Shown here piece by piece: positions 25,148 through 53,185 of a DNA stretch of 64,000 nt. The position numbers and the translations under genes were made by a program. The notes below the pieces were generated by a model that saw nothing but the letters and a program-made list of their open reading frames with translations, did not search any database and was not told the DNA's origin. This stretch comes from Aurantiacibacter odishensis (lineage in GTDB: Bacteria > Pseudomonadota > Alphaproteobacteria > Sphingomonadales > Sphingomonadaceae), in contig NZ_QYOS01000024.1 in assembly GCF_003605195.1 (NCBI RefSeq), positions 62,001 through 126,000 on the forward strand, read 5' to 3'. Numbering within the stretch: position 1 is the stretch's first letter; each line of letters starts with the position of its first letter.

Positions 25148-25159
25148 TAACGCTCGTTA
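25148..25159. promoter_or_regulatory. Putative MarR operator O1
   Basis: TAACG-CT-CGTTA, a perfect inverted repeat, 42 bp before the start of the NTF2-like/SDR/DUF3237 operon and in the gap to the divergent MetE-like gene. Same motif as sites at 33777, 36977 and 40062. Confidence 0.65.
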
Positions 25160-25201: not shown

Positions 25202-25591
25202 ATGAGCCGAACGCCCGAGGAAGAGGCGAACCTGGCGCTGGTGGTGGCGATGTTCGAAAAGATGCTGGTGCCGCTCGATAGCAGCCGCGTCGACGATTAC
25301 ATTGCCGAGGATTACATCCAGCATCACCAGAACGTGGAGCCGGGGCGGGAGGCGCTGAAGAGTTTCCTCGACTGGGCGAAGGGCCAGCCCGGGGAGGCGG
25401 AGCAGATTCTCCACCGCGCATTCGTGGATGGCGACCACGTGATGCTGCACTACCACGTGATCCGTCACGAGGGCGATCCGGGCTTCGCCGTCATGGACAT
25501 CTTCCGTGTGGAAAATGGCAAGATCGCCGAGCACTGGGACGTGATGCAGGATGTCGATCCGGGCCGCCTCAACCCTCTGTCGCCATTTTGA
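25202..25591 (+). CDS. SnoaL/NTF2-like protein
   Basis: 129 residues. The SnoaL-type cone fold is suggested by an initial helix, YIAEDYIQHHQNVEPGREALKSFL (positions about 38-60), and a final beta strand block with GFAVMDIFRVENGKIAEHWDV (about 98-118). Family members include isomerases, cyclases and cofactor-free lyases; the reaction here is unknown. It is the first gene of a three-gene operon (10 bp to the SDR) behind operator O1. The ribosome site is GGGGAGAGA. Confidence 0.8.
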   Translation: MSRTPEEEANLALVVAMFEKMLVPLDSSRVDDYIAEDYIQHHQNVEPGREALKSFLDWAKGQPGEAEQILHRAFVDGDHVMLHYHVIRHEGDPGFAVMDIFRVENGKIAEHWDVMQDVDPGRLNPLSPF

Positions 25592-25601
25592 GGAACTGCC
25601 G

Positions 25602-26351
25602 ATGAGATTCAAAAACAAGATCGTCCTCGTCCTCGGCGGCAATTCCGGCATGGGCCTCGCCGCGGCGCAGGCCTTTGCAGCCGAGGGTGGCAAGGTGCAC
25701 CTCACGGGCCGGGACCAGTCGACCATCGATAGCGCGGTCGCCAGCATCGCGGGCGCAATTGGCTACAGGTCCGACATTTCCGATCCCGCAGCGACCGAGC
25801 AGGTCGTGAAAGCCATCGAGGACACCGATGGCCGGATCGACGTGCTCTACATCAATGCCGGCGTCGGCGGGTTCGCACCCTTGCGGGGCATTACCGAAGA
25901 GGCGTGGGACCATACGCACTCGATCAACCTTCGCGGCTGCGTGTTCGCCTTGCAGAAGGCGGTGCGGATCATGGGCAGGGGCGGCTCTGTCGTCGTTACC
26001 GGTTCGATAGGCGCCCACGGCGCGCTGGAGGGCAACGGGGCCTATGCTGCGGCAAAGGCGGGGCTGTTCATGGCGATGAAGGTGTTCGCCAAGGAACTGG
26101 TGGCAGAGGGCATCCGCGTCAATGTGGTCAGCCCCGGCCCCATCGACACGCCGCTGCTCTATCGCAATCCCGGCATGACGGACGATCAGGTGGCGCGTCT
26201 GAAGGAAATGATGATCGCCAACATCCCGATGAAGCGGATGGGCGAGAGCGAGGAAGTGGCGAAGGCCGTATTGTTCCTCGCCAGCGACGATGCGAGCTTC
26301 ATCAGCGGCGCGAACCTCTTCGTCGACGGCGGCCTGATAGAACTGGGATAG
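25602..26351 (+). CDS. Short-chain dehydrogenase/reductase
   Basis: 249 residues with the Rossmann motif GGNSGMG (about residues 12-18), NAG in INAGVGG, the catalytic Ser in VTGSIG, and YAAAK (Tyr/Lys pair, about 151-155). The C-terminal FLASDDASFISGANLFVDGG is typical of classical SDRs. It likely oxidises or reduces an alcohol/ketone in the pathway. The ATG at 25602 follows GAGGAA; the longer frame overlaps the preceding gene. DUF3237 follows 2 bp downstream. Confidence 0.9.
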   Translation: MRFKNKIVLVLGGNSGMGLAAAQAFAAEGGKVHLTGRDQSTIDSAVASIAGAIGYRSDISDPAATEQVVKAIEDTDGRIDVLYINAGVGGFAPLRGITEEAWDHTHSINLRGCVFALQKAVRIMGRGGSVVVTGSIGAHGALEGNGAYAAAKAGLFMAMKVFAKELVAEGIRVNVVSPGPIDTPLLYRNPGMTDDQVARLKEMMIANIPMKRMGESEEVAKAVLFLASDDASFISGANLFVDGGLIELG

Positions 26352-26353
26352 AC

Positions 26354-26884
26354 ATGACCGACTTCAAAGACACTACCCCCTTCAACGGGCCGTTCAGCGA
26401 ACTGGACAACCCGCGCATGGAATTCGTCATGGAAGTGCGGCTGACTTTTCCCGAAGTCTACACCATCACTCCCCATCCGAACGGCGGAATGCGCAGCGCC
26501 GTGCTAGTGAAGGGCGGCACCTTCGAGGGACCGCACCTGAAAGGGCGCGCCGTGCCCGGTTCGGGCGGGGACTATGCGTACTTCCGGCCGGACGACGTAG
26601 CCGTGTTCGATGCGCGCTACTTACTGGAGGAGGACGACGGCACGGTGATCCTTCTGCACAACAAGGGTTTCCTCTGGGGCCGCCAGCCCGATACCATGCA
26701 GCGCCTTCGCGACTGGGCCTTTGCCGATGGCGAGCCGGTGCCACATCCGGAGTATTACCTGAGAGGCAACCCCACGTTCGAATGCGCCGTGGGCAAGCAC
26801 GACTGGCTGACAAAGCACGTCTTCATCGGGGTGGGAGAGCGCCGCAGCGACGGCAACAGGTTGCGGTATTACGCCCTGACTTGA
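26354..26884 (+). CDS. DUF3237 family protein
   Basis: 176 residues. Recognisable DUF3237 blocks: FEGPHLKGRAVPGSGGDYAY (about residues 54-73), FDARYLLEEDDGTVILLHNKG (about 83-103, read in two halves) and a C-terminal VFIGVGERR. The fold is a small beta barrel of unknown activity; such genes often sit in catabolic clusters of sphingomonads. It is the last gene of the O1-controlled operon, 2 bp after the SDR. Confidence 0.82.
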   Translation: MTDFKDTTPFNGPFSELDNPRMEFVMEVRLTFPEVYTITPHPNGGMRSAVLVKGGTFEGPHLKGRAVPGSGGDYAYFRPDDVAVFDARYLLEEDDGTVILLHNKGFLWGRQPDTMQRLRDWAFADGEPVPHPEYYLRGNPTFECAVGKHDWLTKHVFIGVGERRSDGNRLRYYALT

Positions 26885-32249: not shown

Positions 32250-33740
32250 TCAGCCCTTGCGCACGCTCGCATCCAGTTTTGCGCGTCCCACCCAGGTGCC
32301 GTGAACCTGGCTGCGCAGCGCCTTGCCGGTCCTGATCCTGGCGACCGGACCTTTCTCGACGGCGTCCGCTTCTACCACCCAGAGTTCGCTGAAATAGTCG
32401 GAGGGGTCTCCCGCACCCGGAGGGCCGTTGGGAATGTCGATCATGGTGAGCAGCCAGCCACCATGGCCATCGGCGGCGTCGACCACGTGCGCGGGTTCGC
32501 TGATGGCGGCACCGGGCGGGGTTTCCATCATCGATAGCTGGCCTGTGTTCGGGTTGATCCGCAGCAGCGCGTTGAAGTTCGCGCCGACAGGTCCGCCCAG
32601 CATCGGCGGGCCTTTCGCCTCGGGGTTCATGCTGAGATACCACGCGCGGTCGTAGGGGCGGCCCTGCACCGCGTCTTCCACCCGGCACAGGTCCCCCGGA
32701 GGGCCGAGCGGACGTTCGGCGATCGCCAGCGTGTCGGCGCTCATGTCCACGCTCCAGCGCGTCATCGCGCCCTGGATTTCCTGTTGCGGAATGTCGATCC
32801 CGCCCGCCTCGCGCATGAACTGAAAGGCATTGGTATTGGTGAGGCACAGGTCGACGTGCACCGTATCCCCTTCCTCGAAGGCATTCACCTCGTGGAAGCA
32901 GGAGACGCCGATTGGCCCCTCGATCCATTTCATTTCGGACACATCGCCATAGCGCGGCATGATCCCGAGGTAGCTCGGCAGGTCCTGGTGGTGCGCCCAG
33001 TGTGCGCCGCCTTCCTTGATCCGGTCGAGATCGGCCAGGGTCGGGAAGATCGGGAAGATCGCGTAATTCTCGGTAATCACGAAATCATGGATGGTGGAGC
33101 AGTACGGCTGGTCGAACCATTGTTCCTTCACAAGATTGCCGTCCTTGTCGGCAATGGCATAGGCGACATCCAGCGTACACAGCCCGCCCGCCTCGTATCC
33201 GAAGAAGAACATCTCACCTGTTTCAGGGTCGATGCGCGGGTGGGCGGTGAAGGTTTCGCTCCTCAGCTTGCCTCCGTAGTCCCAGCGGCCCTCGGTCTCC
33301 AGCGTGTGCGGATTGATCTCGTAGCCGCGCCCGTCCTCCTTGGTCATGAACAGGCGACCTCCATGCCACACCGGGGTAGTGTTGGCGACGGTGCGGTCCT
33401 TGCCCTCGACGCTCGGATCGTCGGTGAAGGGGTTGCGGTATCGCCCGAACAGGGCGCGGCCTGCTTCCTTCTCGGCAAGGTAACGCTCTGTCTCGACATA
33501 CCTGATGGCGAAATCGACCTTGCCGGCCTTGATCGAGAAGGCGGAAATCATCCCGTCGTGATTGAGCGCGATATCGTCCTCGAACATGGGTTCGTGCGCG
33601 TTGTCGGGCACGGCGCGGAAGAAGGTGCCTTCTATCGCGGACGGGATTTCTCCCTCCACCTCGAGGTTTTCCAGCCGGTATTCCTGTTGCCGGGGTGTAT
33701 TCGTACCGATAAAATGAATGGTCTGCGGAAAAGCGCCCAT
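32250..33740 (-). CDS. Lignostilbene-dioxygenase-type carotenoid cleavage oxygenase (LSD1)
   Basis: 496-residue non-heme iron enzyme of the carotenoid oxygenase family. Four His ligands are in TAHPRIDP, STIHDFV, CFHEVNAFEEGD and SQVHGTW. Tyr101 (in GRYRN) and Lys134 (in TKEDG) fall at the same positions and 33-residue spacing as the pair that, from memory, binds the substrate 4'-hydroxyl in Novosphingobium NOV1, arguing for a phenolic stilbene substrate cleaved to two aldehydes. It is divergent from marR with operator O2 between them, 36 bp from this start. Convergent with the lipoprotein gene. Confidence 0.88.
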   Translation of the reverse strand: MGAFPQTIHFIGTNTPRQQEYRLENLEVEGEIPSAIEGTFFRAVPDNAHEPMFEDDIALNHDGMISAFSIKAGKVDFAIRYVETERYLAEKEAGRALFGRYRNPFTDDPSVEGKDRTVANTTPVWHGGRLFMTKEDGRGYEINPHTLETEGRWDYGGKLRSETFTAHPRIDPETGEMFFFGYEAGGLCTLDVAYAIADKDGNLVKEQWFDQPYCSTIHDFVITENYAIFPIFPTLADLDRIKEGGAHWAHHQDLPSYLGIMPRYGDVSEMKWIEGPIGVSCFHEVNAFEEGDTVHVDLCLTNTNAFQFMREAGGIDIPQQEIQGAMTRWSVDMSADTLAIAERPLGPPGDLCRVEDAVQGRPYDRAWYLSMNPEAKGPPMLGGPVGANFNALLRINPNTGQLSMMETPPGAAISEPAHVVDAADGHGGWLLTMIDIPNGPPGAGDPSDYFSELWVVEADAVEKGPVARIRTGKALRSQVHGTWVGRAKLDASVRKG

Positions 33741-33776
33741 GACCAGTTCCCTCCCAATGATTCTTGGCGATAACGC

Positions 33777-33788
33777 TAACGGTTGTTA
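33777..33788. promoter_or_regulatory. Putative MarR operator O2
   Basis: TAACG-GT-TGTTA (one mismatch to a perfect repeat) in the divergent LSD1-marR promoter. A further half site TAACG lies 6 bp upstream at 33771 and another near 33814. Likely autoregulatory. Confidence 0.6.
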
Positions 33789-33839
33789 CGATTGGTGCAA
33801 GATCGCTTCATTGATAACGGTCAATCAGGGAGAGTGAGG

Positions 33840-34370
33840 ATGGTGGGGGATACCGGGGAAGCCTTGAGGCAGGGCGGAACGGTGCATTCGGGTGAAACCG
33901 ATGACGTGGTGCTGCTTCACCGCTTGCTGAAGCTCACCAACCGGTTGATGGCACCGTTCTCCATCCACCTGTCGCACCGTTACAAAATTAGCGTGAACGA
34001 ATTCCGCCTGCTGATGACCATCGGCGCGTTGGGCCGCACGGCCAGCCACGAGGTGGCAGAGCTGACCGGCGTCAATGCCATGAGCATCAGCCGCGCCGTT
34101 GCCACGCTGCAGAAGCACGGCCGAGTGGTGGTTGAGCGGGACGAGAGCAACAAGCGGCGCAAGTGGCTCAGCTTGTCGGACGAGGGCGAGCGTCTGTACG
34201 AGATCATGCGGCCGCAGACCGAGAGGGTGGCCCATTACCTGTTCGGCAAGCTGGAGAAGGTCGAGCTTGAAGGCTTCGCGAATATCGTCGAACGCCTGAT
34301 CGAACGGCTCGATGCCGAGGACGAGGACGGCAATTCGTTGTTCCTCGAGCGCACGAAACCCGAAGAATAG
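33840..34370 (+). CDS. MarR-family transcriptional regulator
   Basis: 176 residues. The winged helix (about residues 55-125) includes NEFRLLMTIG, then ASHEVAELTGVNAMSISRAVATL, and the wing with DESNKRRKWLSLSDEGE. MarR proteins usually repress aromatic catabolism genes and release DNA on binding a phenolic ligand. The ATG at 33840 has AGGGAGAG upstream; a TTG-started extension would run through the operator. It is the only regulator within 25-45 kb, so it is the best candidate to bind the four TAACR-NN-YGTTA sites. An NTF2-like gene follows 16 bp downstream. Confidence 0.9.
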   Translation: MVGDTGEALRQGGTVHSGETDDVVLLHRLLKLTNRLMAPFSIHLSHRYKISVNEFRLLMTIGALGRTASHEVAELTGVNAMSISRAVATLQKHGRVVVERDESNKRRKWLSLSDEGERLYEIMRPQTERVAHYLFGKLEKVELEGFANIVERLIERLDAEDEDGNSLFLERTKPEE

Positions 34371-34386
34371 CGCCGAAGGAATGACC

Positions 34387-34812
34387 ATGACCGAAGAACA
34401 GCGCCGCGCGATCGAGGCCGATGTGACGCGCCTGATTCACCAGTATGTCTGGGCAAACGACGCGCAGGACTGGCAGCAGTGCGCTTCTCTCTACACCAAG
34501 GATGCCGTGTTCCGCCGCCCCAGCGGCGGCGACCCGGTGGCGGGACGCGACGCAATCCTGGCCAGCTTCACCGCCCGTCCTCCGCGTTCGCAGCGGCACG
34601 TGATGGCGAACACCCTGGTCGAGGTGGTGAGCGAAACCGAGGCGCGGGCGAAAAGCGTGATCGTGCTCTACATGGGCGATGCAGCGGAAGAGGGGCTGCC
34701 GGTGCAGGATCCCAAGTCTCCGCTGATCGGCACCTTCGAGGATCGCGTGGTGCTGACCGACAACGGCTGGCGCTTTGCCGAACGAACCGGCGGACTGGAC
34801 TTCAGGCCCTAG
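34387..34812 (+). CDS. SnoaL/NTF2-like protein
   Basis: 141 residues with the SnoaL-like pattern: helix (RRAIEADVTRLIHQYVWAND), ASLYTKDAVFRRPSGGDPVAGRDAI (about residues 34-58), and a terminal DNGWRFAERT. Related sphingomonad proteins include cofactor-free gamma-formaldehyde lyases that turn lignin dimers into stilbenes, so its position with marR opposite LSD1 is suggestive. Of two candidate ATGs, the one at 34387 has GAAGGA at proper spacing. Its 3' end overlaps the convergent MFS gene by 11 bp. Confidence 0.8.
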   Translation: MTEEQRRAIEADVTRLIHQYVWANDAQDWQQCASLYTKDAVFRRPSGGDPVAGRDAILASFTARPPRSQRHVMANTLVEVVSETEARAKSVIVLYMGDAAEEGLPVQDPKSPLIGTFEDRVVLTDNGWRFAERTGGLDFRP

Positions 34813-36022
34813 CTTCCGCCGCTTCACGCCGCCTGAGGGCTGCGGGCACGAGCAGGGCTATCACCACGCAGGCGAGCGCGGGCAGGGCGGCCACGCCGAG
34901 GAAGTCCTTCGGCGCGACGGAGGTTGCCAGCATCCATCCCCCCAGCGGAGGGCCGGCGAAAGCACCCAGCCGCGCCACCAGCACACCGACACCGACTGCG
35001 CTCGACAGCATCCGGGCGGGAAACAGGTAGGCGGCAAGGCCGGGCAGCACCATTCCTCCGGCATTGGCCCCGCCAACGCCCACCATCAGCAGCAGGGTCC
35101 ACCGCGCCGGGTCGGGCGCGGTCAGCCAGATCGCTGCGAAACTTGCGGCCATCGCGCCGAACAGCAGGACCAGCGTCAGCCCCTTGCGCCACCTGTCCAG
35201 CAGCAGGCTTGCGGCAATGCCGATGCCCAGGCCCGCGAGGTTCGCCACCCCGGTAATCCGCGCCGCGGCGTCCATCGTCAGGCCCGCGCCGGGCAGGACG
35301 GTGGGCAGCCAGCTGTTCAGGAGATAAAGGTTGCCCGCGTTGAAGGCGAGCATCGCTGCGAACACGGCGAAAGGGAACAGCCAGGGCGACTTGAGCAAGG
35401 CCAGTTGCGGAAGCGGTTCCTTCGCCGTTTCTTCGGAAGCTTCCCGACCTTCGCCGACACCGGGAATGCCGGGTTCGAGTATCGGCCATAGCGCGGCGGC
35501 CAGCACGATCGCAAAGGCACCGGGGACGAGGAACAGCCCCTCCCATCCCAGCAGGTCGACGATCTCGGGGGCGAGCAGCCCGGCCAGTGCGAGGCCCACG
35601 GGAATACCGGCTGAAACCACCGCCATGATGGTCGCGCGCAGACGCTGCGGCGCCAGTTCCGCCGAAAGGGCGCTGACATTGGGCAGGCAGGCCCCGAGCG
35701 CGAGGCCGGTTACCAATCGCCAGACGAGGAAGCCGGATATGGTGGTGGCGCTCGCCGTCCCGAGGGTGGAAAGCCCGGTGACGAGACATCCGGCCACGAT
35801 CAGCGTCCGTCGTCCGTAACGGTCGCCCAGCGGCGCGATCAGGGCGCCGCCTGCACCAAGGCCGATCAGCAAGGCGGTGAACACCCAGCCGAACCCGGCG
35901 GGGTCGAGGCCCAGCGCCCCCTCGAGCCGGGGAACGGCCAGCGCCATCGCGGCGATGTCGAAGCCTTCCATGATGAAGATCCCCGCCAGCAGGGCGAGGG
36001 AGAGCATGGTGCGCCCGGTCAT
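34802..36022 (-). CDS. MFS transporter, aromatic acid:H+ symporter type
   Basis: 406 residues, twelve predicted helices. Helix 1 carries MEGFDIAAMALAVP, matching the AAHS-family DGFD-type motif, and the loop 2-3 motif is GDRYGRRTLI. Transporters of this group import benzoate-, vanillate- or protocatechuate-like acids. The ATG at 36022 lies 10 bp after the stop of the tandem NTF2-like gene, so both are transcribed from the O3 promoter. Substrate inferred from family and context only. Confidence 0.85.
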   Translation of the reverse strand: MTGRTMLSLALLAGIFIMEGFDIAAMALAVPRLEGALGLDPAGFGWVFTALLIGLGAGGALIAPLGDRYGRRTLIVAGCLVTGLSTLGTASATTISGFLVWRLVTGLALGACLPNVSALSAELAPQRLRATIMAVVSAGIPVGLALAGLLAPEIVDLLGWEGLFLVPGAFAIVLAAALWPILEPGIPGVGEGREASEETAKEPLPQLALLKSPWLFPFAVFAAMLAFNAGNLYLLNSWLPTVLPGAGLTMDAAARITGVANLAGLGIGIAASLLLDRWRKGLTLVLLFGAMAASFAAIWLTAPDPARWTLLLMVGVGGANAGGMVLPGLAAYLFPARMLSSAVGVGVLVARLGAFAGPPLGGWMLATSVAPKDFLGVAALPALACVVIALLVPAALRRREAAEARA

Positions 36023-36032: not shown

Positions 36033-36932
36033 TCAGGCGACACGGCGCAAATCTCCGCCGCCAACCAGCGCTTCGTCGCGCCCGTCCCAAGGGGAGGGCA
36101 TGCGGTAGGGCACCGTGAGGAAATCGGCCTCGACCTGTTCGATTGCGCCGTCACGGATGCGGAAGGCTTCGGCGAGGTAGTAGCTATGCGGGCGGCGCAC
36201 CGGGCTGTTTGCCGTGGTGCCATCGGTCAGCGTGTATTCGCCGATGCGGCCCGAATGGTCGATGAAGCCGTAGGCCAGCACGATCCCGCGCTCTGTATCC
36301 ACCAGTGGGAAGCGGCGCGCGCGCAGGTCGTCGTCGTAGCGATACCAGCCGAGTGCGAACTGCTCCTCGCAGCTCAGACGCGCGACAGGCAGCGGGAAAT
36401 CGGCGTTGTTGGTGGTCTGCACCCCGTTTTCCACGCGGTTGCAGCTTGGCCAGAACTTCGTGTTGATCGTGCCGTCGTTGCGCTCGATCGTCTCGAAGTA
36501 GCCATCGGCCACGCGCACCAGTTCCGCGCGGGTGGAGCGGGCGCCATCGGGGATCAGCGCTTCCATCACCGGCTTGCGCTCGAAATGCTGCGGTCCAAAG
36601 GGGAAGCCCTCGTCCTTGTTGCGGGCCACCACGGTCTCGATGCCGGTGATCTGCCCGCTCGCCACTTCCAGCCGGACGCACGCGGGGTTCAGCGCGTCGG
36701 TTTCCTCCACCGCGGTGAACACGGCCACCTGTCCGCGAGAAGGTTCCGCAAAGCGCAGGTCGTAATCGTGCCTGGCGGTGATCGTGTTCCACAGCCCGTC
36801 GCCCACGGCTAGTCGCACGTTGTTTTCGGTATTGAAGACGCCCGGCGCAATCGGCGCGCGCGACGGGTCCCTGGCGACGAGCGCCGCCAGATAGGCGTCC
36901 AGAACGCCGTACAATTCCTCACGACTGGCCAA
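36033..36932 (-). CDS. Two-domain NTF2-like protein of unknown function
   Basis: 299 residues, apparently two related halves. Each begins with a helix of the form ELxxVxDxYxxxxxxxD (about residues 6-22 and 139-155) followed by a beta-rich part, as in NTF2/SnoaL proteins; the second half contains CNRVENGVQTTNN and a long strand region with RGIVLAYGFIDHSG. It resembles DUF8021-type proteins. No signal peptide. It is the first gene of an operon with the MFS transporter, divergent from the VAO-type oxidase with operator O3 between them. Function is unknown; a lyase or isomerase is possible. Confidence 0.65.
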   Translation of the reverse strand: MASREELYGVLDAYLAALVARDPSRAPIAPGVFNTENNVRLAVGDGLWNTITARHDYDLRFAEPSRGQVAVFTAVEETDALNPACVRLEVASGQITGIETVVARNKDEGFPFGPQHFERKPVMEALIPDGARSTRAELVRVADGYFETIERNDGTINTKFWPSCNRVENGVQTTNNADFPLPVARLSCEEQFALGWYRYDDDLRARRFPLVDTERGIVLAYGFIDHSGRIGEYTLTDGTTANSPVRRPHSYYLAEAFRIRDGAIEQVEADFLTVPYRMPSPWDGRDEALVGGGDLRRVA

Positions 36933-36976: not shown

Positions 36977-36988
36977 TAACGAACGTTA
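36977..36988. promoter_or_regulatory. Putative MarR operator O3
   Basis: TAACG-AA-CGTTA, a perfect inverted repeat, central in the 98-bp divergent gap: 44 bp from the NTF2-like start and 42 bp from the VAO-type oxidase start. Confidence 0.65.
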
Positions 36989-37030: not shown

Positions 37031-38593
37031 ATGGCGGATACACCGCTGCCACCGGGAATGTCGGCCATGCGGCTGGACGAGGCGCGCCGGGCGCTGGAAA
37101 GCGCGCTGGGTTCGGACAAGGTCTTTTTCGAGCCTCTCGACAGGCGCAGCTACCAGGACAAGTTCGCGGTGGACGATGCGCTGCATCATCCCGCGGGCGC
37201 GGTCTCGCCGGAATCGGTTGAGGAAATCCAGGCGGTGCTGGCGATTGCCAACGAATACCGCCTGCCGGTCTTCCCCATCGCGCGCGGCAAGAACCTTGGC
37301 TACGGCGGCACCGCGCCGGTGATGGCAGGCTCCGTCGTGATGGACCTGTCGCGCATGAAAAAGATTGAGTTCGATGCCGAGAACGGCACCGTCCTGCTGG
37401 AGCCGGGTGTCGGCTTCTACGATCTCTACGATTACATCCAGCGCAATAACCTGCCCTACTGGCTCTCCACCCCCGGAAACAGCTGGGGCAGCGTTATGGG
37501 CAACGCGCTGGATCGCGGCGTGGGCTACACGCCCTACGGTCAGCATACCGAGAACATCTGCGGCCTTGAAGTCGTGCTGGCCAACGGCGAAGTGGTGCGC
37601 ACCGGCATGGGCGCTTTCACCGGCGCGCCGACGTGGCAGACCTACAAGTACGGCTTCGGCCCCGCTTGGGACCAGATGTTCGTGCAGTCCAACTTCGGTA
37701 TCGTGACGAAGATGGGCATGTGGCTGATGCCCGAGCCTGAAAGCCTGATGGGCATGGACGTGGAGTTCGACCGGCCCGAGGACCTGAAAGTGATGGTCGA
37801 CACCATCGCCCCGCTGCGCCGTGAACGGCTGCTGACCCAGTCGCCCAGTATCGGCAACTGGATGCGCGCCGCTGCCGTGCTGACAACGCGCGACCAGTGG
37901 ACGGACGAGCCGGGTGCGCTGTCCGACAGCGTGATCGACGCGATCCGCCGACAGTTCAACATCGGGTGGTGGGGCGTCAGCCTGCGCCTTTACGGCCGGG
38001 AGGACGTGAACAAGGCGGCTTACAAGGTGCTGGAAGAGGCGATGGGCAATGTTGGCCCCATGTCCATTCGGCCCACATCATGGCGCAAGGGCGAACCGCT
38101 GGAATACACCGGCTGGACCGGCACGCCGATGACGTTCCCGATGCAGAACGTGAACTGGTACGGCGGGCGCGGTGGGCACATCGGCTTCTCGCCCATCATC
38201 GAGCAGGACGGCGACAAGGCGCTGGCCCAGTTCCGCCGCACCTACGCCCGCTACCAGGAATACGGCATGGACTACCAGGGCAGCTTCGCTTTCGGAGAGC
38301 GGCACATGGTCAACGTGAACGCCATGATCTTCAACAAGGACGATCCGGACATGATGGCCAAGGTCGATCCCTTCTTCCGCACGCTGGTGGCGGACGCGAA
38401 GGAGCAGGGTTACGGCGAATACCGCACGCACCTCGATTACATGGACCTTGTCGCGGATTCGTACGACTTCAATGGCGGCTCGATGAAGCGGATGAACGAG
38501 GCCGTGAAGGACGCTCTCGACCCCAACGGCATCATCGCGCCGGGCAAGAGCGGTATCTGGGGCACCCAATGGCAAGACGGAGGCGCGGCATGA
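37031..38593 (+). CDS. VAO/p-cresol-methylhydroxylase-type FAD oxidoreductase
   Basis: 520 residues. FAD-binding segment with ARGKNLGYGG (about residues 86-95) and VLLEPGVGFYDLYDY (about 120-134), and the 4-phenol oxidase C-terminus with EYRTHLDYMD and NGIIAPGKSGIW. Relatives oxidise vanillyl alcohol, eugenol, 4-alkylphenols or p-cresol at the benzylic carbon. A cytochrome c gene overlaps its stop (ATGA), so electrons probably go to cytochrome, as in p-cresol methylhydroxylase and eugenol hydroxylase, rather than directly to oxygen. No signal peptide is seen, so periplasmic export would need the partner. First gene behind O3. Confidence 0.88.
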   Translation: MADTPLPPGMSAMRLDEARRALESALGSDKVFFEPLDRRSYQDKFAVDDALHHPAGAVSPESVEEIQAVLAIANEYRLPVFPIARGKNLGYGGTAPVMAGSVVMDLSRMKKIEFDAENGTVLLEPGVGFYDLYDYIQRNNLPYWLSTPGNSWGSVMGNALDRGVGYTPYGQHTENICGLEVVLANGEVVRTGMGAFTGAPTWQTYKYGFGPAWDQMFVQSNFGIVTKMGMWLMPEPESLMGMDVEFDRPEDLKVMVDTIAPLRRERLLTQSPSIGNWMRAAAVLTTRDQWTDEPGALSDSVIDAIRRQFNIGWWGVSLRLYGREDVNKAAYKVLEEAMGNVGPMSIRPTSWRKGEPLEYTGWTGTPMTFPMQNVNWYGGRGGHIGFSPIIEQDGDKALAQFRRTYARYQEYGMDYQGSFAFGERHMVNVNAMIFNKDDPDMMAKVDPFFRTLVADAKEQGYGEYRTHLDYMDLVADSYDFNGGSMKRMNEAVKDALDPNGIIAPGKSGIWGTQWQDGGAA

Positions 38594-39018
38594 AGCGGCT
38601 GGCAACGATCGCGGGCGCTGCGGCGCTTCTCTCAGGCGCGGGCGTGGCGCTGGCGCAAAGCGCAGCGGGCATCGACGACGAGACCGAGGAAGCCGCCGCC
38701 GCGCAGGCCGGGCCACCGCCGATGCCGCAGCCCGTGACCATGGCGAAGCGCCCGGATGCGACAGGTGGAGAGGCTCTCTATGTCGAATACTGCGCCATGT
38801 GCCACACCGCGAACGGCATGGGCACCGGCCTGCTGGCGCGGCGCGTAGATACGCCGATCCTGGAAGAGCGCGACAACCTGGCAGCGGCCTACGTCATGGT
38901 TGCCGCCCGCAATGGCATCGGCAACATGCCCGCCGTGCCGCGCGGCGAACTTTCCGACGAGGATTTGCAGGCGATTGCCGATTATCTTGCCGCAGGGCCG
39001 CACGAGGTGACACCATGA
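38590..39018 (+). CDS. c-type cytochrome subunit
   Basis: 142 residues: signal peptide (cleavage after GVALAQ), a short Ala/Pro-rich linker, then a class I cytochrome c domain with CAMCH heme site and an axial Met likely in GNMPAVP. It overlaps the flavoprotein stop and the next gene's start by ATGA junctions at both ends, indicating a tightly coupled three-gene unit. It is the probable electron acceptor of the VAO-type enzyme. Confidence 0.88.
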   Translation: MKRLATIAGAAALLSGAGVALAQSAAGIDDETEEAAAAQAGPPPMPQPVTMAKRPDATGGEALYVEYCAMCHTANGMGTGLLARRVDTPILEERDNLAAAYVMVAARNGIGNMPAVPRGELSDEDLQAIADYLAAGPHEVTP

Positions 39019-39533
39019 AGGTTACGCGGCGCAATGTCATGGCGGGTGCGCTGGCGGTGCCTGCAATCGCGGCACTGGGGGAGACCGCGTGGGCGCAGCC
39101 CTCTTCCGTAGTCGGAGTCTTCGACGCGCAGCTCCCTGCCGGGCAGCGGTTCGCAAGCTTGCTGCGAGACGCCGGAAAGGGTGCTCGAACAGTAGAAGGC
39201 GACCGGATCAGGCTGGCACGCGACATTCTCGCCAGCCGCCCGCCGATGCTGGCCGGGGTCACGCGCAGCGCCGATGCCCTGCTGTTTGCCGAAGTGGCGG
39301 CAGAGTGCGGCTACGAAACGACGCTTGAGTTGCGCGGCAACCGCCTGGGCTGTTCGGGCTTCACCTGCAATCCGGATTGGAACCCGCTCAGCCGCCAGAT
39401 CGTGGGCGCGGGTGCAGATTGGCTCGGCGCATTTGCCGCTTTCGTCGCCAATCCGTCAGCACCCGTGCCCACCGCGGGCCGGGTCGATGTCGCGGCCACC
39501 GCGCTTGCCTGGTTGCTGGTGCGCCGCGCCTGA
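39015..39533 (+). CDS. Tat-exported protein of unknown function
   Basis: 172 residues beginning with a twin-arginine signal (TRRNVMAGALAVPAIAALGE, cleavage after AWA). The mature part is about 145 residues with a paired-Cys element, GCSGFTC (about residues 118-124), and no recognised cofactor motif. It is the third gene of the VAO-type flavocytochrome operon (ATGA overlap). It may help export or assemble the flavoprotein, which lacks its own signal; this is inference. Confidence 0.65.
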   Translation: MKVTRRNVMAGALAVPAIAALGETAWAQPSSVVGVFDAQLPAGQRFASLLRDAGKGARTVEGDRIRLARDILASRPPMLAGVTRSADALLFAEVAAECGYETTLELRGNRLGCSGFTCNPDWNPLSRQIVGAGADWLGAFAAFVANPSAPVPTAGRVDVAATALAWLLVRRA

Positions 39534-39536: not shown

Positions 39537-40034
39537 CTACTTGCGGATGATAAGGCTGTCGGGGCGCTTGCGCGGTTTCCAGTCGCCATGGCCGGGGAAG
39601 CGTTCCAGCACCTTGCCGTCCCATAGCCGTACCACGCGCTCCCTGAAACGCCACTTCCCGTCTTCGCCTTTCACCGCGTGATCGTCGTAATAGCCGCAGA
39701 AGCGCAGTTCGTAGGGCGGCTCGTCGTGGCATTCCGTGACGAAAGCGAAGCCGCGCATTTTCACGGTGCCGTCGCCTTGCGGGAAATACTGCACCTGCGT
39801 TACGTGATGCTGCCTGCCGGGGAAGCCGGGGGCACTGGCATAGTGGTTCATCAGGCCGCGAATGCCATCGTGCCCGCGCCAGATGTCCGGGTCCTCGAAC
39901 ACTTCCTCGCGCATCTCGCAGTCGGGCGTGAAGCATTCCACCAGAGCCTCCGCATCGCCGGTGTCGAGTGCCCAGCTGTAGGCGGCGATCAGGTCTTGCA
40001 GACCCAGCCGGTCTTCGATCGAAACAGTCGTCAT
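39537..40034 (-). CDS. SnoaL/NTF2-like protein
   Basis: 165 residues. Start: DRLGLQDLIAAYSWALDTGD, then FTPDCEMREEVFEDPDIWRGHDGIRGLM (about residues 35-62) and a C-terminal half ending in WRFRERVVRLWDG. This is the SnoaL_4 pattern seen in ring-hydroxylating dioxygenase small subunits and lyases; no large subunit is nearby, so a stand-alone lyase or isomerase is more likely. It is convergent with the Tat protein gene and divergent from the NmrA-like gene with operator O4 between. Confidence 0.8.
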   Translation of the reverse strand: MTTVSIEDRLGLQDLIAAYSWALDTGDAEALVECFTPDCEMREEVFEDPDIWRGHDGIRGLMNHYASAPGFPGRQHHVTQVQYFPQGDGTVKMRGFAFVTECHDEPPYELRFCGYYDDHAVKGEDGKWRFRERVVRLWDGKVLERFPGHGDWKPRKRPDSLIIRK

Positions 40035-40061: not shown

Positions 40062-40073
40062 TAACATTCGTTA
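40062..40073. promoter_or_regulatory. Putative MarR operator O4
   Basis: TAACA-TT-CGTTA (one mismatch) in the divergent gap, 27 bp from the NTF2-like start and 52 bp from the NmrA-like GTG start. Confidence 0.6.
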
Positions 40074-40125: not shown

Positions 40126-41034
40126 GTGGCAAGAATCATCGTTTCCGGGGCGTCCGGCCAGTTCGGCCATGCCGCCGCTTCGCAGCTTCTGGACATGGGT
40201 GAGGACGTCATCGCGCTGTCGCGCAGCACCGACAGGCTGGCGGACCTTGCCGAGCGCGGCGCCGATGTGCGCGCGGCCGATTTCGACAGTCCCGAGGGGC
40301 TGGAAGAGGCGATGGCAGGCGGGGACAAACTGCTGCTAATCTCCACCACCATGGTGGGAGAGCGCGCCCGCCAGCACGGCAATGCCATTGACGCGGCAAA
40401 GGCGGCGGGCGTGAAGCATGTGGTCTACACCTCGCTGCTTGGCGCGCGCAAACCCGGCAATCCTTCGGTCGAGGGGTTCGACCATATCGCGACCGAGGAA
40501 AAGCTGGAGCAATCGGGCATCGCTTATACGTTCCTGCGCAACAGCCTCTATGCCGAGGCCGTGGCCACCGCGATGGCGATCCCCGCGCTGGCTTCCGGCC
40601 ACAAGCCGGAGAACGCGGGCGAGGGCCGCGTGCCGGTGGTCAGCCGGGACGATTGCGTCGCCATCGCCGTCGCCGTGCTGACGCAGGAAGAGCATGAGAA
40701 CAAAGCCTACGACGTTACCGGGCCGGATCTGTGGACCCTGCCTGATGCCATGGCGCTGGTGGCACAAATGGCCGGCAAGCCCATCGAGGTGCAGCAGGTC
40801 GATGACGAGGGGATGTTCGCCTATTTCGATTCGCTGGGCGTGCCGCGCAAGTCCGCCGAGGTCGACCCCAACGGACCTATCCCGTGGGCGAGCGAGGGCA
40901 TGGTGACCTTCGGCCAGTCCATCCGTGAGGGATACATGAATATCGAATCCGATGATGTTGAGCGCATCACCGGCAAGCCGCCGCGCTCCTTGCGCTCCGT
41001 CTTCGAACAGCACCAGGGAGCCTGGCCCGCATGA
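40126..41034 (+). CDS. NmrA-like NAD(P)-binding oxidoreductase
   Basis: 302 residues from a GTG with GGGAGA upstream. N-terminal GASGQFGHAA nucleotide-binding motif (about residues 7-16), VVYTSLLGARKP (about 103) and TEEKLEQSGIAYTFLRN, the usual markers of the atypical SDR/NmrA group that includes quinone oxidoreductase 2 and phenylcoumaran benzylic ether reductase-like enzymes. The substrate is unknown, though a reductive step on a lignin dimer is conceivable. Its stop overlaps the PQQ dehydrogenase start (ATGA). Confidence 0.82.
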   Translation: MARIIVSGASGQFGHAAASQLLDMGEDVIALSRSTDRLADLAERGADVRAADFDSPEGLEEAMAGGDKLLLISTTMVGERARQHGNAIDAAKAAGVKHVVYTSLLGARKPGNPSVEGFDHIATEEKLEQSGIAYTFLRNSLYAEAVATAMAIPALASGHKPENAGEGRVPVVSRDDCVAIAVAVLTQEEHENKAYDVTGPDLWTLPDAMALVAQMAGKPIEVQQVDDEGMFAYFDSLGVPRKSAEVDPNGPIPWASEGMVTFGQSIREGYMNIESDDVERITGKPPRSLRSVFEQHQGAWPA

Positions 41035-43253
41035 GCCGCCTTCTCGCATTCGTCGCCGTCATCGGCCTTTCCGCCTGCACCGCCTCTGCCGTGGACGGGC
41101 CCCGGACCGGCACCCCGCTCGCTACGCAGGATGCGCCGCTCGGCGCAGGCGTGGATTGGGACAATCCCGGCGGCGACTGGGGCGAAAGCCACTTCTCGCG
41201 GCTCGAGTCCATCAACTCCGGGAACGTGGCGCGCATGGGCCTTGCGTGGGAATACGACATGGGCACCGCCCGCGTGCAGGAAGCGACTCCCGTCGTGATC
41301 GACGGGGTGATGTACACCTCCGGAAACCTTGGCCGGGTCTATGCGCTGAACGCGGTCACCGGCGAGGAGCTGTGGACCTTCACCCCGGATCTCGACATGC
41401 AGGTGAACCGCTTTGCCTGCTGCGATCAGGCCAACCGCGGCGTGGCCGTGGCCGATGGAAAGGTAATGGTCGGCGCACTGGACGGCAAGCTGTGGGCGCT
41501 CGAAATGGCGACTGGTGAGCCTGTGTGGAACGTCGACACCATCGTCGATCATACGCGAGGCTACACTTCCACCGGCGCGCCCGAAGTGGCAGGCGACATC
41601 GTGGTGATCGGCAACGGCGGCAGCGAATACGACGCGCGCGGCTATGTTTCTGCATACAATATCGCCGATGGGTCGCTGGCCTGGCGCTTCTACACCGTGC
41701 CGCGCGATCCCGAAACCGGACCGCAGGAAAACCCAGAACTCGACGCCGCGCTGGCCACCTGGAGCGAGGAAACCCGATGGGATATCGGCGGCGGCGGAAC
41801 GGCGTGGGATGCCATCGTCTACGATCCGCAGTTCGATCAGGTGATCGTGGGCACCGGCAACGGCGGGCCCTATCCGCAGGCAATCCGTTCGCCCGGCGGC
41901 GGCGACAATCTCTATCTCAATTCGCTGGTGGCGCTGGACCGCGAGACAGGGCGAATGAACTGGTATTTCCAGGAAACCCCGCAGGACAACTGGGACCTGA
42001 CGGCCACGCAGCCGATGATCCTCGCCTCGCTGGACGTGGAGGGCGAGCAGCGCCCGGTCATCCTGCACACGCCCAAGAACGGCAATTTCTACGTGGTTGA
42101 CCGCGAGAACGGCCACGCCCACGCTGTCAATCCGCTGGTGCGCATGAACTGGTCCGACGGTTTCGATACCGAGACGCAGAAGCACAACGTCACGCTGGCG
42201 GAATCGGATTATTCGAATGGGCCGAAGATCGTCTATCCCGGCTCTCCGGGTGCGCGCAACTGGTATCCCGCCGCCTTCGATCCCACCCGCGGCACCTATT
42301 TCGCCCACGTGCTGGACATGGGGAACCTGCTGTTCCTGACAGGCCCTGCGGACGATGTGGAATACAAGGAAAAGGCGCTGAACGCGGGCGCGGCGATCAT
42401 TTTTACCAGTGATTTGCAGGCCGCCGCCGAAACCCTGCCGCCACCCTTGCGCGCTGCCGTGATGGCGGAAGCGGCGTGGAAATGGGTGCTGGACAAGCCT
42501 TTCGAAAGCCAGCTTCGCGCCATCGATCCGCTGACGGGCGAGACCAAGTGGGCGGTGGAAAGCCTTGGCTGGCAGGACCGGCACGGCGTGCTTTCCACGC
42601 AGAGCGGCCTCATCTTCCACGGCGACGTGGGCGGCACGCTTTATGCGCGCGACGCCGATACGGGTGAAGCGCTCTGGAGCATCGAGACAGGCTCTACCAT
42701 CATGGCCGCGCCGATGACCTACATGGTGGACGGCGTGCAGTATGTTGCCGTGCAGACCGGCTGGGGCGGCGGCGGTTGGGGCTTTGTGCCGCGCTATGCG
42801 GCGGCCTACCAGAAGGGCAATGCCAATCGCATCCTAGTCTTCCGGCTGGACGGCGGAGAGGTGGCGATTCCGGAGGACCTGCCACCGCTGCAACCCGCGC
42901 CGGAGCCACCTGCGCAATATGCAGATGCCACGCCGCAAATGATTGCGGCGGGTGCCGCCCTCTTCACCGAGAACTGCACCATGTGCCATTCCAACCAGCC
43001 GCGCGCCCCGCTGCCGGACCTCAGGCGCATGAACCGCGGCGTGCACGCCGGTTTCCAGCAGATCGTGCGCGGCGGGCTGTTCGTCAGTCGCGGGATGCCG
43101 CATTTCGAAGACCTGCTGAGCGAGGACGAGGTAAAAGCGATCCACGCCTGGCTGATCAGCGTGCAGGGTCCGCTGCGCGAACGCGAATTGCAGTTGCAGG
43201 CAGAGGGCCTGCCGCTTGACACGCAATCGCTCACCATCCTGTCGAATTATTGA
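41031..43253 (+). CDS. PQQ- and heme c-dependent alcohol dehydrogenase, lipoprotein type (calcium-type site)
   Basis: 740 residues. Lipoprotein signal (lipobox LSAC, Cys16). An eight-bladed propeller with the vicinal disulfide CC at residues 130-131 that stacks on PQQ. Catalytic Asp is in NWDLTATQP (Asp322), followed at +2 by Thr, as in calcium enzymes. The C-terminal cytochrome domain has CTMCH (about residue 653). Type II quinohemoproteins oxidise primary alcohols in the periplasm. It lies between the NmrA-like and aldehyde dehydrogenase genes in the O4 operon. Confidence 0.9.
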   Translation: MSRLLAFVAVIGLSACTASAVDGPRTGTPLATQDAPLGAGVDWDNPGGDWGESHFSRLESINSGNVARMGLAWEYDMGTARVQEATPVVIDGVMYTSGNLGRVYALNAVTGEELWTFTPDLDMQVNRFACCDQANRGVAVADGKVMVGALDGKLWALEMATGEPVWNVDTIVDHTRGYTSTGAPEVAGDIVVIGNGGSEYDARGYVSAYNIADGSLAWRFYTVPRDPETGPQENPELDAALATWSEETRWDIGGGGTAWDAIVYDPQFDQVIVGTGNGGPYPQAIRSPGGGDNLYLNSLVALDRETGRMNWYFQETPQDNWDLTATQPMILASLDVEGEQRPVILHTPKNGNFYVVDRENGHAHAVNPLVRMNWSDGFDTETQKHNVTLAESDYSNGPKIVYPGSPGARNWYPAAFDPTRGTYFAHVLDMGNLLFLTGPADDVEYKEKALNAGAAIIFTSDLQAAAETLPPPLRAAVMAEAAWKWVLDKPFESQLRAIDPLTGETKWAVESLGWQDRHGVLSTQSGLIFHGDVGGTLYARDADTGEALWSIETGSTIMAAPMTYMVDGVQYVAVQTGWGGGGWGFVPRYAAAYQKGNANRILVFRLDGGEVAIPEDLPPLQPAPEPPAQYADATPQMIAAGAALFTENCTMCHSNQPRAPLPDLRRMNRGVHAGFQQIVRGGLFVSRGMPHFEDLLSEDEVKAIHAWLISVQGPLRERELQLQAEGLPLDTQSLTILSNY

Positions 43254-43261: not shown

Positions 43262-44731
43262 ATGACCCCAGAGAACGTCAACATCGCACATCCGGACAAG
43301 CTGTTCATCGGCGGCGAATGGGTGAAGCCGCAGTCGAACAATTCCATCGAGGTGGTGAACCCCGCCAGCGAGGACGTGGTCGCGCGTGTCGCCCATGCCG
43401 GAAACCGCGACATGGACGCAGCCGTCGCCGCCGCGCGTCATGCCTTCGACAACGGCCCGTGGCCGCGCCTTTCTCCGCAGGAGCGGCAGGCCAAGCTGAT
43501 GGAGATGGTCGACTACCTCGAAACCCGCGTGCCCGAACTGGCGGCGGCGTGGACGGCGCAGGTCGGCGGGCTTGCCAGCGCGGCTGGCCCGATGCACGCA
43601 GGCGGCGTGGCTGGGCTGCGCGGTATTGCCAGCCTCGGCGAACGCTTCGCATGGACAGAGCAGCGCCCCGGCATGGCGGTAGACACCGTCACCGTGGTGC
43701 GCGAGCCCGTGGGCGTTGTCGTCGCCATCGCGCCGTGGAACGGGCCGTTCGCGATCATGGCCAACAAGGCGTTCTACGCCCTGATCGCGGGCTGCACCGT
43801 GGTGATGAAGCCGTCTCCCGAAACCCCGCTGGAAGCCTATATCATCGCCGAGGCGGCGGAGGCCGTGGGTATGCCGGCAGGCACGGTCAGCCTCGTCCCC
43901 TCAGATCGCGACGCGGCGGACCACCTGATCCACTCGACGCACATCGACAAGATCACTTTCACCGGCTCCACTGCGGCGGGCAAGCACATTGCCAGCGTTG
44001 CGGGCGGCAACATGGTGCGCGCGACGTTCGAACTGGGTGGCAAGAGCGCGGCGATTATCCGCGACGATTTTCCCATCGATGCGGCGGCGAACATCCTCGG
44101 CAATACCATCACGGTGATGAGCGGACAGGTGTGCGCCATGTTGAGTCGCGCCATCGTGCCACGCGCCCGCCACGACGAACTGGCGGAGGCCATCGCGGGC
44201 GTGATGAAAGGTGTGAAGATTGGCCATCCGGAGGACGAGAACACACAGCTTGGCCCCGTTGCCATGCACCGCCAGCTCGAACGCATCGAGATGTATATCG
44301 AGGCGGGCAAGGCGAGCGGCGCGGACCTCGTGACAGGCGGCCATCGCCCCAGCCACATGAACAAGGGCTATTACATAGAGCCGACGCTGTTCGCGAACGT
44401 CGATAACAAGAGCAAGATCGCGCAGGAGGAGATCTTCGGCCCCGTCCTGTGCCTGATCCCGGCGGAGGACGAGGAGGACGCCATCCGCATCGCCAACGAG
44501 AGCGACTACGGCCTCAATGGCTCCGTCTTTACGGGCGACGCGCAGGCCGCCTACGATATCGCGCGCCGCGTGCGCACGGGCGTCGTCGGCCAGAACGGCA
44601 TGCGTATGGAATGGACCGCGCCCTTCGGCGGCTTCAAGCAATCCGGCATCGGCCGCGAGGGCGGCGACGAGGGGATCTGGGGCTATGTCGAGACGAAGAC
44701 GATCCTGACGGATGCGAGCGTGAAGGTCTAG
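43262..44731 (+). CDS. NAD(P)-dependent aldehyde dehydrogenase
   Basis: 489 residues. Glu in FELGGKSAAI (about residue 259), catalytic Cys in SGQVCAM (about 293), cofactor motif FTGSTAAGKH, and the C-terminal EEIFGPVL. It would oxidise aldehydes produced by the adjacent PQQ dehydrogenase or by stilbene cleavage (vanillin-like). The ATG at 43262 is 8 bp after the PQQ gene stop; a TTG four codons upstream is rejected. Last gene of the O4 operon. Confidence 0.92.
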   Translation: MTPENVNIAHPDKLFIGGEWVKPQSNNSIEVVNPASEDVVARVAHAGNRDMDAAVAAARHAFDNGPWPRLSPQERQAKLMEMVDYLETRVPELAAAWTAQVGGLASAAGPMHAGGVAGLRGIASLGERFAWTEQRPGMAVDTVTVVREPVGVVVAIAPWNGPFAIMANKAFYALIAGCTVVMKPSPETPLEAYIIAEAAEAVGMPAGTVSLVPSDRDAADHLIHSTHIDKITFTGSTAAGKHIASVAGGNMVRATFELGGKSAAIIRDDFPIDAAANILGNTITVMSGQVCAMLSRAIVPRARHDELAEAIAGVMKGVKIGHPEDENTQLGPVAMHRQLERIEMYIEAGKASGADLVTGGHRPSHMNKGYYIEPTLFANVDNKSKIAQEEIFGPVLCLIPAEDEEDAIRIANESDYGLNGSVFTGDAQAAYDIARRVRTGVVGQNGMRMEWTAPFGGFKQSGIGREGGDEGIWGYVETKTILTDASVKV

Positions 44732-51004: not shown

Positions 51005-52119
51005 AGATCACCGCAGCCCTCTCCGGACGGGGCGGCGAAGCGCCGCAATTGGTCGAACTGGAACAGGAGGCCCCGCGCGCGGGCGAAATGCGCATTCGCC
51101 TTGTCGCCACCGGCATCTGCCATACGGACCTGCACGAACATCCCGGCAGGCACTCGCCCCAGCCGATCGTGCTGGGACACGAAGGCGCGGGCGTGGTGGA
51201 GGAACTGGGCGAGGGTGTGACGGACTTTGCCGTGGGCGACCACGTGATCCTTTCGGGCAATTCCTGCGGCCAGTGCCCAAGCTGCCTCGCCGGTCTTCCG
51301 ACATACTGTGACCTGGCCATGCCGCTGTGCTTCGGCGGCAAGCGGCTGGATGGCTCCACCGCGCTTTGTGCGGGCGACGAGACGGTGCATTCGCACTTTT
51401 TCGGCCAGTCCAGCTTCGCCACCCATTCCATCGTGCCCCAGCGCACGGCGGTGAAGATGGCGAAGGACCTGCCGCTGGAAAAACTCGGGCCGCTGGGCTG
51501 CGGTGTGGTGACGGGCGCTGGCGGCGTGATCGAGGCGCTGAAAGTCGGCTTCGGCGATACCATCGCTGTCTTCGGCACCGGCGGCGTGGGCCTGTCCGCC
51601 GTGATGGCGGCCAAGCTGGTGGGCGCGAAACGCATCGTGGCGGTGGACCTGTCTGACGAGCGGCTGGAAATGGCGCGCGAATTCGGCGCGACCGATACCT
51701 TCCGCGGCGACCAGGACGGGCTTGCCGATGCCATTCGCCAGGTGACCGGGCGAGGGGTGGACTACACTTTCAACACCACCAATGCGGGCGCGGTACACAC
51801 CCTTGCGCTGGAAGTGCTGGCGATGAATGGCATGGCCGGGTTCGTGGCCGCGCCGCTGCCGGACAAGGACGGGCCGTGGTCGCCGCAGATGTTCGCGATG
51901 CTGGCGGGCGGACGGCAGCTTCGCGGCATCCTTGGCGGCGACGCCAACCCGCGCACTTTCCTGCCGCAACTGGCTGAGTACTGGCGGCAGGGCCTGCTGC
52001 CGTTCGACCGAATGCTGAAATTCTATCCCTTTGCCGATATCGAGCGCGCCTTCGCCGACGCGAAAAGCGGCGTCGCGATCAAGCCTGTCCTGCTGATGGA
52101 GAGCCAAGATGACGCCTGA
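51001..52119 (+). CDS. Zinc-dependent alcohol dehydrogenase (MDR family)
   Basis: 372 residues from a GTG overlapping the preceding stop. Catalytic zinc ligands: Cys in [12 protein letters not shown] (about residue 40) and GHEGAGV (about 60). Structural zinc site C-x2-C-x2-C-x7-C in [20 protein letters not shown] fold GTGGVGLSA (about 196). The pattern resembles aryl- or class-III-type alcohol dehydrogenases. It would interconvert an alcohol and the aldehyde used by the upstream enzyme. It overlaps the esterase gene by 11 bp. Confidence 0.92.
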
Positions 52120-52972: not shown

Positions 52973-52978
52973 CCCTCC

Positions 52979-53095: not shown

Positions 53096-53185
53096 TTCAC
53101 TTTCAACTTTCCGGTTTCCCCCCGGTCACATGGCTTTCAACACATGGACCAGGGGATGTATCCGGAAAATCCCGTGAATTCGCCG

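Follow-up and report, generated by a model that had tools for sequence, protein, structure and literature searches.

This work concerns a window of 64,000 nucleotides (the whole stretch of DNA analysed) from Aurantiacibacter odishensis, contig NZ_QYOS01000024.1, and a group of genes lying within it. Here, the gene of a lignostilbene dioxygenase (LSD), named LSD1, lies opposite a regulator gene, marR, which is followed by the gene of an NTF2-like protein. All three genes are present, and they belong to the families RPE65 (385 bits), MarR_2/MarR (about 32 bits) and SnoaL_4 (77.5 bits), respectively. The mechanical open reading frame (ORF) of the NTF2-like gene opens at 34312; the ATG at 34381 agrees with the homologs. 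The marR and NTF2-like genes probably share one operon. The trio forms part of a roughly 20-kilobase cluster, apparently under common regulation, common to many related bacteria, which probably degrades a two-ring plant compound. The trio and the palindromes that are its putative operators are as follows.

32250..33740, minus strand: LSD1, lignostilbene dioxygenase of the LSD5/PinU/NOV2 group
33840..34370, plus strand: marR, putative cluster regulator (start at ATG inferred; in-frame TTG upstream at 33783)
34381..34812, plus strand: NTF2-like (SnoaL_4) protein, 10 bp after marR
33777..33788, no strand: putative operator palindrome TAACGGTTGTTA, between LSD1 and marR
25148..25159, no strand: putative operator palindrome TAACGCTCGTTA, upstream of the SnoaL_2-SDR-DUF3237 genes (SDR, short-chain dehydrogenase) and of a divergent MetE-like gene
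36977..36988, no strand: putative operator palindrome TAACGAACGTTA, between the orphan gene at 36033 and the flavocytochrome genes
40062..40073, no strand: putative operator palindrome TAACATTCGTTA, between the SnoaL_4 gene at 39537 and the reductase gene at 40126

A scan for the locus retained 80 of 100 relatives. The gene caller used for these loci works by codon score and failed on some of them (for example, L045, L046, L024 and L027), so the family counts per locus are lower bounds. In many Erythrobacteraceae loci, one side holds the LSD, marR, NTF2, MFS, orphan, flavoprotein, cytochrome, small conserved protein, SnoaL_4, NmrA reductase and pyrroloquinoline quinone (PQQ) dehydrogenase genes, and the other side holds SnoaL_2, SDR, DUF3237 and often GMC. 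A MarR match is present in 39 of the 80 loci (at only 30-32% in L069 and L073), and an NTF2 match of at least 60 bits in 34. A sample of 119 genomes of the family, the own one included, was also searched, with thresholds of E <= 1e-120 for LSD, 1e-35 for MarR and 1e-15 for NTF2. The three were found in 18, 14 and 24 genomes, respectively, and in 12 of the 119 they lie together within about 4.5 kb (coordinates read by eye). The arrangement that a preliminary description of this DNA had pointed out is thus real and recurrent, and by this comparison it is not a matter of chance.

LSD1 is, by its sequence features, a dioxygenase of the stilbene-cleaving class, as had been proposed, and falls in the LSD5/PinU/NOV2 group. 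Its score exceeds the cut-off of the NCBIfam NOV2 model (854 bits against 650) and falls short of that of the other lignostilbene model (433 bits against 800). The residues named earlier, Tyr101, Lys134 and the four iron-binding histidines (His167, His218, His283 and His480), are all present, along with N120, and every one of them is kept in all 81 aligned sequences (80 loci and the window). The resemblance to NOV1 that was drawn from them holds for these shared residues and stops at Phe59, which is replaced by Leu, at the Phe before the third histidine, and at the better-fitting NOV2 model. Position 59 is Leu in 78 of the 81 sequences and Ile in three; the residue before the third iron histidine, Phe282 in LSD1, is Phe in 71 and Tyr in ten. 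LSD4 has Phe59 and Ser283 at these places; LSD5 and LSD6 have Phe at position 283 (PMC8191317). Changing Ser283 of LSD4 to Phe lowered kcat/KM about 70- to 90-fold according to Table 2 of that paper, or by an order of magnitude according to its abstract. A NOV1/LSD4 type for LSD1 was ruled out by the NCBIfam models together with Leu59 and Phe282, there being no small Ser, Gly or Ala at LSD4 position 283. Among the eight LSDs of SYK-6, numbered here by matching their order on the chromosome to the locus tags in PMC8191317, the closest to LSD1 is LSD5 (SLG_27970, 63% identity). A FastTree phylogeny places both in one clade of 66 members (support 0.996), which does not include PinU. The genome holds three RPE65-family genes, all on the same contig (C18), two of them within the window.

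The LSD1-marR gap contains a palindrome, TAACRNNYGTTA, which recurs in three other divergent promoters of the window. It was first noticed in LSD-marR gaps, taken from the 39 loci with both matches after omission of 4 gaps outside 0-600 bp. TAACRNNYGTTA is the stricter form of the motif, and TAACnnnnGTTA is the form that was counted over all 81 sequences. The latter occurs 215 times in 1.64 Mb (the 80 named loci and the window), and 214 of these copies fall outside called genes. Shuffled sequences gave a mean of 8 copies. The shuffle preserves single-base content only and was run twice; hence controls for half-site and spacing were added. The half-site TAAC was the most enriched of all 256 (37-fold over composition, the next being 9-fold), and none of the rearranged half-sites tested exceeded 30 copies. 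Among spacings of 0-8, 4 alone stands out, and no other spacing gave more than 9 copies. The 215 sites should not be counted as separate events, as the loci are related and hence not independent.

The sites are also sharply placed. The window contains exactly four TAACnnnnGTTA sites, all in divergent gaps of the LSD1 cluster. In the LSD5 clade, 61 of the 66 loci carry 2-5 strict sites, and 157 strict sites are more than 600 bp distant from the start of the LSD gene, outside the region of discovery; outside the clade, 5 of 15 loci carry 1-2. In SYK-6, all five strict sites of the chromosome fall between 3,003,783 and 3,021,206, a stretch of 17.4 kb around LSD5. Inside the cluster lie 4 of the 9 strict sites of Aurantiacibacter suaedae, 4 of the 7 of Alteraurantiacibacter aestuarii, and 4 of the 13 loose sites of the own genome. 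An ortholog of MarR (55-100%) was found in 12 of 15 genomes queried, the remaining three giving only matches of 28-35%. The conserved palindrome in the divergent promoter of marR itself and in the putative target promoters is what a MarR-type autoregulated repressor would be expected to show, and this computed operator supports the suggested MarR control of the LSD1 region. Control of the DesR type was considered and rejected, as the DesR inverted repeats (PMC6888825) are unlike TAACRNNYGTTA. Scanning 33600-34900 for sigma-70 promoters yielded a single 9/12 match, which was not used. Operator-like palindromes were also seen on another contig of the genome, at C23:46018-62291. They stand before a GMC oxidase gene (C23:46018) and before an operon containing an NTF2 paralog (C23:57958; 38% identity), and the stretch adjoins a TonB receptor gene.

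The unit had been described as compact; instead, 15 genes stand under the four putative operators of the window. Besides the trio, these genes are as follows.

25202..25591, plus strand: SnoaL_2 protein
25602..26351, plus strand: SDR
26354..26884, plus strand: DUF3237 protein, in the class of PinX-type decarboxylases (69% identity with the copy in the N. capsulatum pin cluster)
34802..36022, minus strand: MFS transporter (aromatic acid/H+ symport is the nearest NCBIfam model, score below cut-off)
36033..36932, minus strand: orphan conserved protein that reaches no Pfam cut-off (an NTF2-like fold is modelled for residues 1-112)
37031..38593, plus strand: VAO/PCMH-family flavoprotein (45% to the PinW-position protein of N. 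capsulatum)
38590..39018, plus strand: small cytochrome c (4-bp overlap with the flavoprotein gene)
39015..39533, plus strand: conserved protein without a Pfam family (N-terminus Tat-signal-like by eye; relatives in 30 loci)
39537..40034, minus strand: second SnoaL_4 protein
40126..41034, plus strand: NmrA/QOR2-type reductase (46-47% identity with the proteins at the PinZ position in SYK-6 and N. capsulatum)
41031..43253, plus strand: PQQ-dependent dehydrogenase with a cytochrome c domain
43262..44731, plus strand: aldehyde dehydrogenase (ALDH; 66% identity with the copy in the N. capsulatum pin cluster)

The window copy of the gene at 39015..39533 was missed by the gene caller used for the loci. 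The orphan protein has relatives in 38 of the 80 loci. Outside the cluster, an O-demethylase gene at 20944-22368 passes both NCBIfam cut-offs (DesA 831 bits, cut-off 800; LigM 601 bits, cut-off 580) and is flanked by MetE-like, FolD-like and MetF-like genes, the last two being named by eye.

We consider it fairly probable that the trio belongs to a MarR-repressed catabolic regulon of these 15 genes with four putative operators, at about 25.1-44.7 kb of the window, which serves a breakdown of dimers similar to that of pinoresinol (pin). Gene content, conservation, the palindromes with their placing, the homologies and the fold were computed; MarR binding, the effector, the order of reactions, the substrate and the role of the NTF2-like protein we infer from them. 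MarR would sit on the TAACRNNYGTTA palindromes in the divergent promoters until a phenolic derived from the dimer binds it and releases it. The enzymes would then act in the manner of the pinoresinol route. A GMC or PQQ dehydrogenase and the ALDH would oxidise the side chain of a C-C linked guaiacyl/syringyl dimer to the carboxylate, and the DUF3237 protein would decarboxylate it to an alkene. The flavocytochrome would oxidise the para-alkylphenol to a quinone methide, and LSD1 would split the final stilbene or butadiene into two aldehydes. The monomers might be passed onward by the LigM/DesA-type demethylase nearby. Induced pchF/pchC genes have been reported in PMC10866074, in passages that do not mention this cluster.

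The LSD5/lsdF region of SYK-6 (SLG_27970-27980) is among the known systems closest to this cluster. Apart from LSD5 itself, it shares MarR (58%, SYK-6 copy at 3,005,661), DUF3237 (75%) and the flavoprotein (70%) with the window, as well as SnoaL genes and the five strict palindromes mentioned above; a GMC gene lies there as well. It differs in gene order and in having an LdpA-like gene. A flavoprotein gene at 3002106-3003632, whose product is 44% identical to the PinW-position protein, lies within the LSD5 regulon together with a cytochrome gene at 3001690-3002109; the table of PMC12997858 lists no SYK-6 homolog of pinW or pinV. PinY is a GMC oxidase as published; the same paper lists SLG_27980 as the SYK-6 homolog of pinY, and pinU as the LY homolog of SLG_27970 (LSD5). 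Given the homologs in the window cluster and the GMC gene SLG_27980 next to LSD5 by its tag, the regulon holds most of the pin tool set.

Several observations weigh against the reading of a pin-like regulon. The motif is not more numerous genome-wide than a control read backward (13 against 19 in the own genome, 5 against 10 in SYK-6, and 9 against 16 and 7 against 9 in two other genomes); the evidence is therefore the placing of the sites and not their number. Moreover, five of the 66 loci of the LSD5 clade lack the operator, four of the 18 LSD-bearing family genomes lack a MarR match, and 12 further family genomes have NTF2 matches without the adjacent trio. The window cluster contains no GMC gene, an operator-linked one (40% identity) being on another contig. 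No PinZ-like reductase and no PQQ dehydrogenase were found in the SYK-6 stretches examined. PinU groups with LSD6 in the tree (support 0.87), apart from the LSD1/LSD5 clade. The reductase of the window has the 46-47% identity to PinZ given above in direct alignment, as against 72-77% among the PinZ-type proteins compared. Lastly, SYK-6 converts pinoresinol only to lariciresinol (PMC12607616). As it has the regulon and PinZ and yet stops there, lariciresinol is an unlikely substrate, at least in this organism. LSD5 is also not among the LSD genes that the discussion of PMC8191317 reports as induced on DCA. Taken together, neither lariciresinol nor DCA is an obvious substrate, and the substrate is probably another dimer than lariciresinol.

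In a more specific form, which we put forward tentatively, this would be a regulon of sphingomonads in which a stilbene or butadiene is formed from a dimer outside the assigned pathways and then cleaved. The NTF2-fold proteins (34381, 39537, 25202 and the N-terminal part of 36033) and the flavocytochrome would act on quinone methides, with deformylation or dehydration by an NTF2 family other than that of LdpA. In 2021, the physiological roles of the eight SYK-6 LSDs were still described as not determined, LSD4 being tied to DCA (PMC8191317). Our literature search, limited to PMC papers under CC0, CC BY and CC BY-SA licences, found neither a published role for SYK-6 LSD5 nor a published description of the regulon or the operator. 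If the new-dimer reading is true, the orphan LSD5 gains a role and a regulator. The sharply placed putative operator and the regulator gene make the role of LSD5 directly testable in SYK-6. A dimer class could thereby be added to lignin funnelling, and the regulator and its operator might serve as a dimer sensor.

The closest alternative is an ordinary pinoresinol pathway that has diverged by lineage. The pinUZXWV cluster of Novosphingobium rhizosphaerae LY (PMC12607616) was compared through its relative N. capsulatum NBRC 12533. On contig C18 of the latter, 25-45 kb, lie cytochrome, flavoprotein, DUF3237, PQQ dehydrogenase, orphan, SnoaL_2, SDR, ALDH, TonB receptor, MarR-like, LdpA, SDR, reductase and LSD genes. 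From DUF3237 to LSD, their order and spacing fit the R9J51 tags of the pinX, desV, ldpA, ldpB, pinZ and pinU homologs (tags from PMC12997858); in the pinW-pinX interval, one gene was called in excess of what the spacing of the tags permits. Position and identity served to assign the PhcF/PhcG copies and PinZ. Against the two copies that SYK-6 has at the phcFG position, the N. capsulatum DUF3237 protein shows 43% and 39% identity, near the values published for PinX (42% and 38%). The window DUF3237 protein has 39-44% to these SYK-6 copies.

Between the window and the N. capsulatum cluster, identities beyond the 69% of DUF3237 and 66% of ALDH are 58% for the PQQ dehydrogenase, 54% for SnoaL_2, 53% for the orphan, 52% for both SDR and LSD, 47-49% for the reductase, 45% for the flavoprotein and 37% over 54 residues for the cytochrome. 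Homologs of PinU, PinX, PinW, PinV and PinZ are thus clustered in the window at 37-69% identity, and the window cluster looks like a relative of the pin pathway. LSD1 and the reductase did not come out as orthologs of PinU and PinZ. An early reading of the reductase as a non-PinZ protein, based on its best PDB matches (QOR2 and triphenylmethane reductase), was dropped because the PinZ model has the same nearest structures (PMC12817470) and because of the 46-47% found in direct alignment. N. capsulatum differs in having another MarR (29%) and another LSD subclade; the NTF2 and second SnoaL_4 genes are absent from the 32 kb compared, which carry one strict palindrome and one loose one. The strict one lies 46 bp upstream of the pinW-position gene (C18:27087), in spite of the distant MarR, and the published pin genes may share part of the LSD1-cluster control. 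The identities of DUF3237, ALDH, the PQQ dehydrogenase and the orphan protein, together with this palindrome, favour an ordinary pin pathway; the SYK-6 phenotype, the position of LSD1 in the tree and the low identity to PinZ leave it unlikely.

A somewhat less probable alternative is that LSD1 serves the beta-1 pathway in trans: an LdpA homolog encoded on another contig (C19:267846-268574, 430 bits to SpLdpA 8abv) would make lignostilbene for LSD1 to cleave, and the other genes of the cluster would serve something else. In the LdpA/LsdA pathway of Novosphingobium aromaticivorans and SYK-6, an NTF2-fold protein similarly works with an LSD; LdpA belongs to another NTF2 family than the protein of the window. 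It speaks for this alternative that none of the three LSD-family genes of the genome groups with LSD6/LsdA, and that a lysate with SYK-6 LSD5 cleaves lignostilbene, preferring it over DCA-S (PMC8191317). A one-base variant of the strict operator also lies 65 bp upstream of a PQQ dehydrogenase gene, about 3 kb from ldpA. Upstream of ldpA itself, no operator was found, and the beta-1 route as published in PMC12997858 offers no step for the DUF3237 and flavocytochrome genes of the cluster. At the C19 locus, an SDR gene adjoins ldpA and no LSD gene is nearby.

The reading of the preliminary description, that the NTF2-like protein is a gamma-formaldehyde lyase of the LdpA type which makes a stilbene from a beta-1 or phenylcoumaran dimer for LSD1 to cleave, in a compact MarR-controlled pair, is highly improbable: sequence and length do not support it, and the LdpA homolog of the genome sits elsewhere. 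A profile comparison does place the two proteins in one superfamily (E 1.4e-4 for that one comparison), with a probability of only 52 and 21% identity. Full-length similarity was not found; the NTF2-like protein has 143 amino acids against about 242 in LdpA, and the C-terminal part that follows the NTF2 domain of LdpA is missing. The LdpA structures (8abt and 8abv by their titles) are not among the best 60 of 66 PDB matches of the single protein, nor among the best 60 of 98 of its 35-row profile; the matches listed are weak, scytalone-dehydratase-like and isomerase proteins. The N. capsulatum pin region examined contains LdpA and no NTF2 ortholog. On the other side, in the 12 family genomes whose LSD has at least 72% identity, the NTF2 gene always lies at most 2 kb from marR.

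Loss of the lyase active-site residues would also have spoken against a lyase, and here the result is divided, as the Asp and the His position are kept while the C-terminal part of LdpA is absent. Among 35 aligned NTF2-like sequences, Asp27 is found in all and His73 in 34. In the profile alignment, His73 falls on LdpA position 97, and Asp27 pairs with an LdpA Asp by eye. At position 97, the PDB sequences 8abt and 8abu differ (His/Gln), which may mark an active-site mutant. An Asp-His pair of this kind is catalytic in LinA and scytalone dehydratase. A lyase role would be compatible with the kept residues; the family appears tied to LdpA by superfamily alone.

The AlphaFold model of the NTF2-like protein (pLDDT 95.5) shows a scytalone-dehydratase/LinA-like fold. 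It is best matched by the putative scytalone dehydratase 3ef8 (Foldseek E 1.8e-9; VIA Z 18.8, root-mean-square deviation 2.1 over 133). Within about one Z unit, the next VIA matches are further putative dehydratases, LinA with 18.0 and bile-acid 7-alpha dehydratase with 17.6; the score of nuclear transport factor 2 is 16.9. NaLdpA ranks 17 in Foldseek (TM score 0.45 on the target). LdpA is not among the 50 VIA-align matches listed, an absence that proves nothing. The fold does not decide the LdpA question, since only a few Z units separate many of the NTF2-fold proteins. In the reading of a pin-like regulon, the NTF2-like protein would be an accessory protein of the dehydratase/isomerase class, perhaps acting on the quinone methide, and not an LdpA.

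A third comparison is offered by the phcCDFG/LSD7 beta-5 locus of SYK-6, which follows the same logic with a GMC oxidase, a DUF3237 decarboxylase and an LSD (PMC12997858). Its relatives in the own genome are separate from the LSD1 cluster, at window 49565-55583 and at C18:376-389 kb. Against the SYK-6 LSD7 locus, the former shows ALDH at 65%, alcohol dehydrogenase at 71%, hydrolase at 54%, SnoaL at 66% and LSD at 39%. In this second LSD of the window, Arg replaces Lys at position 134; the SnoaL_4 gene of the stretch is divergent. The other stretch (C18:376284-388804) holds two GMC oxidoreductase, one ALDH, two DUF3237 and SnoaL genes, making up a phcCDFG-like beta-5 locus. These loci fit the statement that the SYK-6 route is common in Erythrobacteraceae other than Novosphingobium (PMC11323797).

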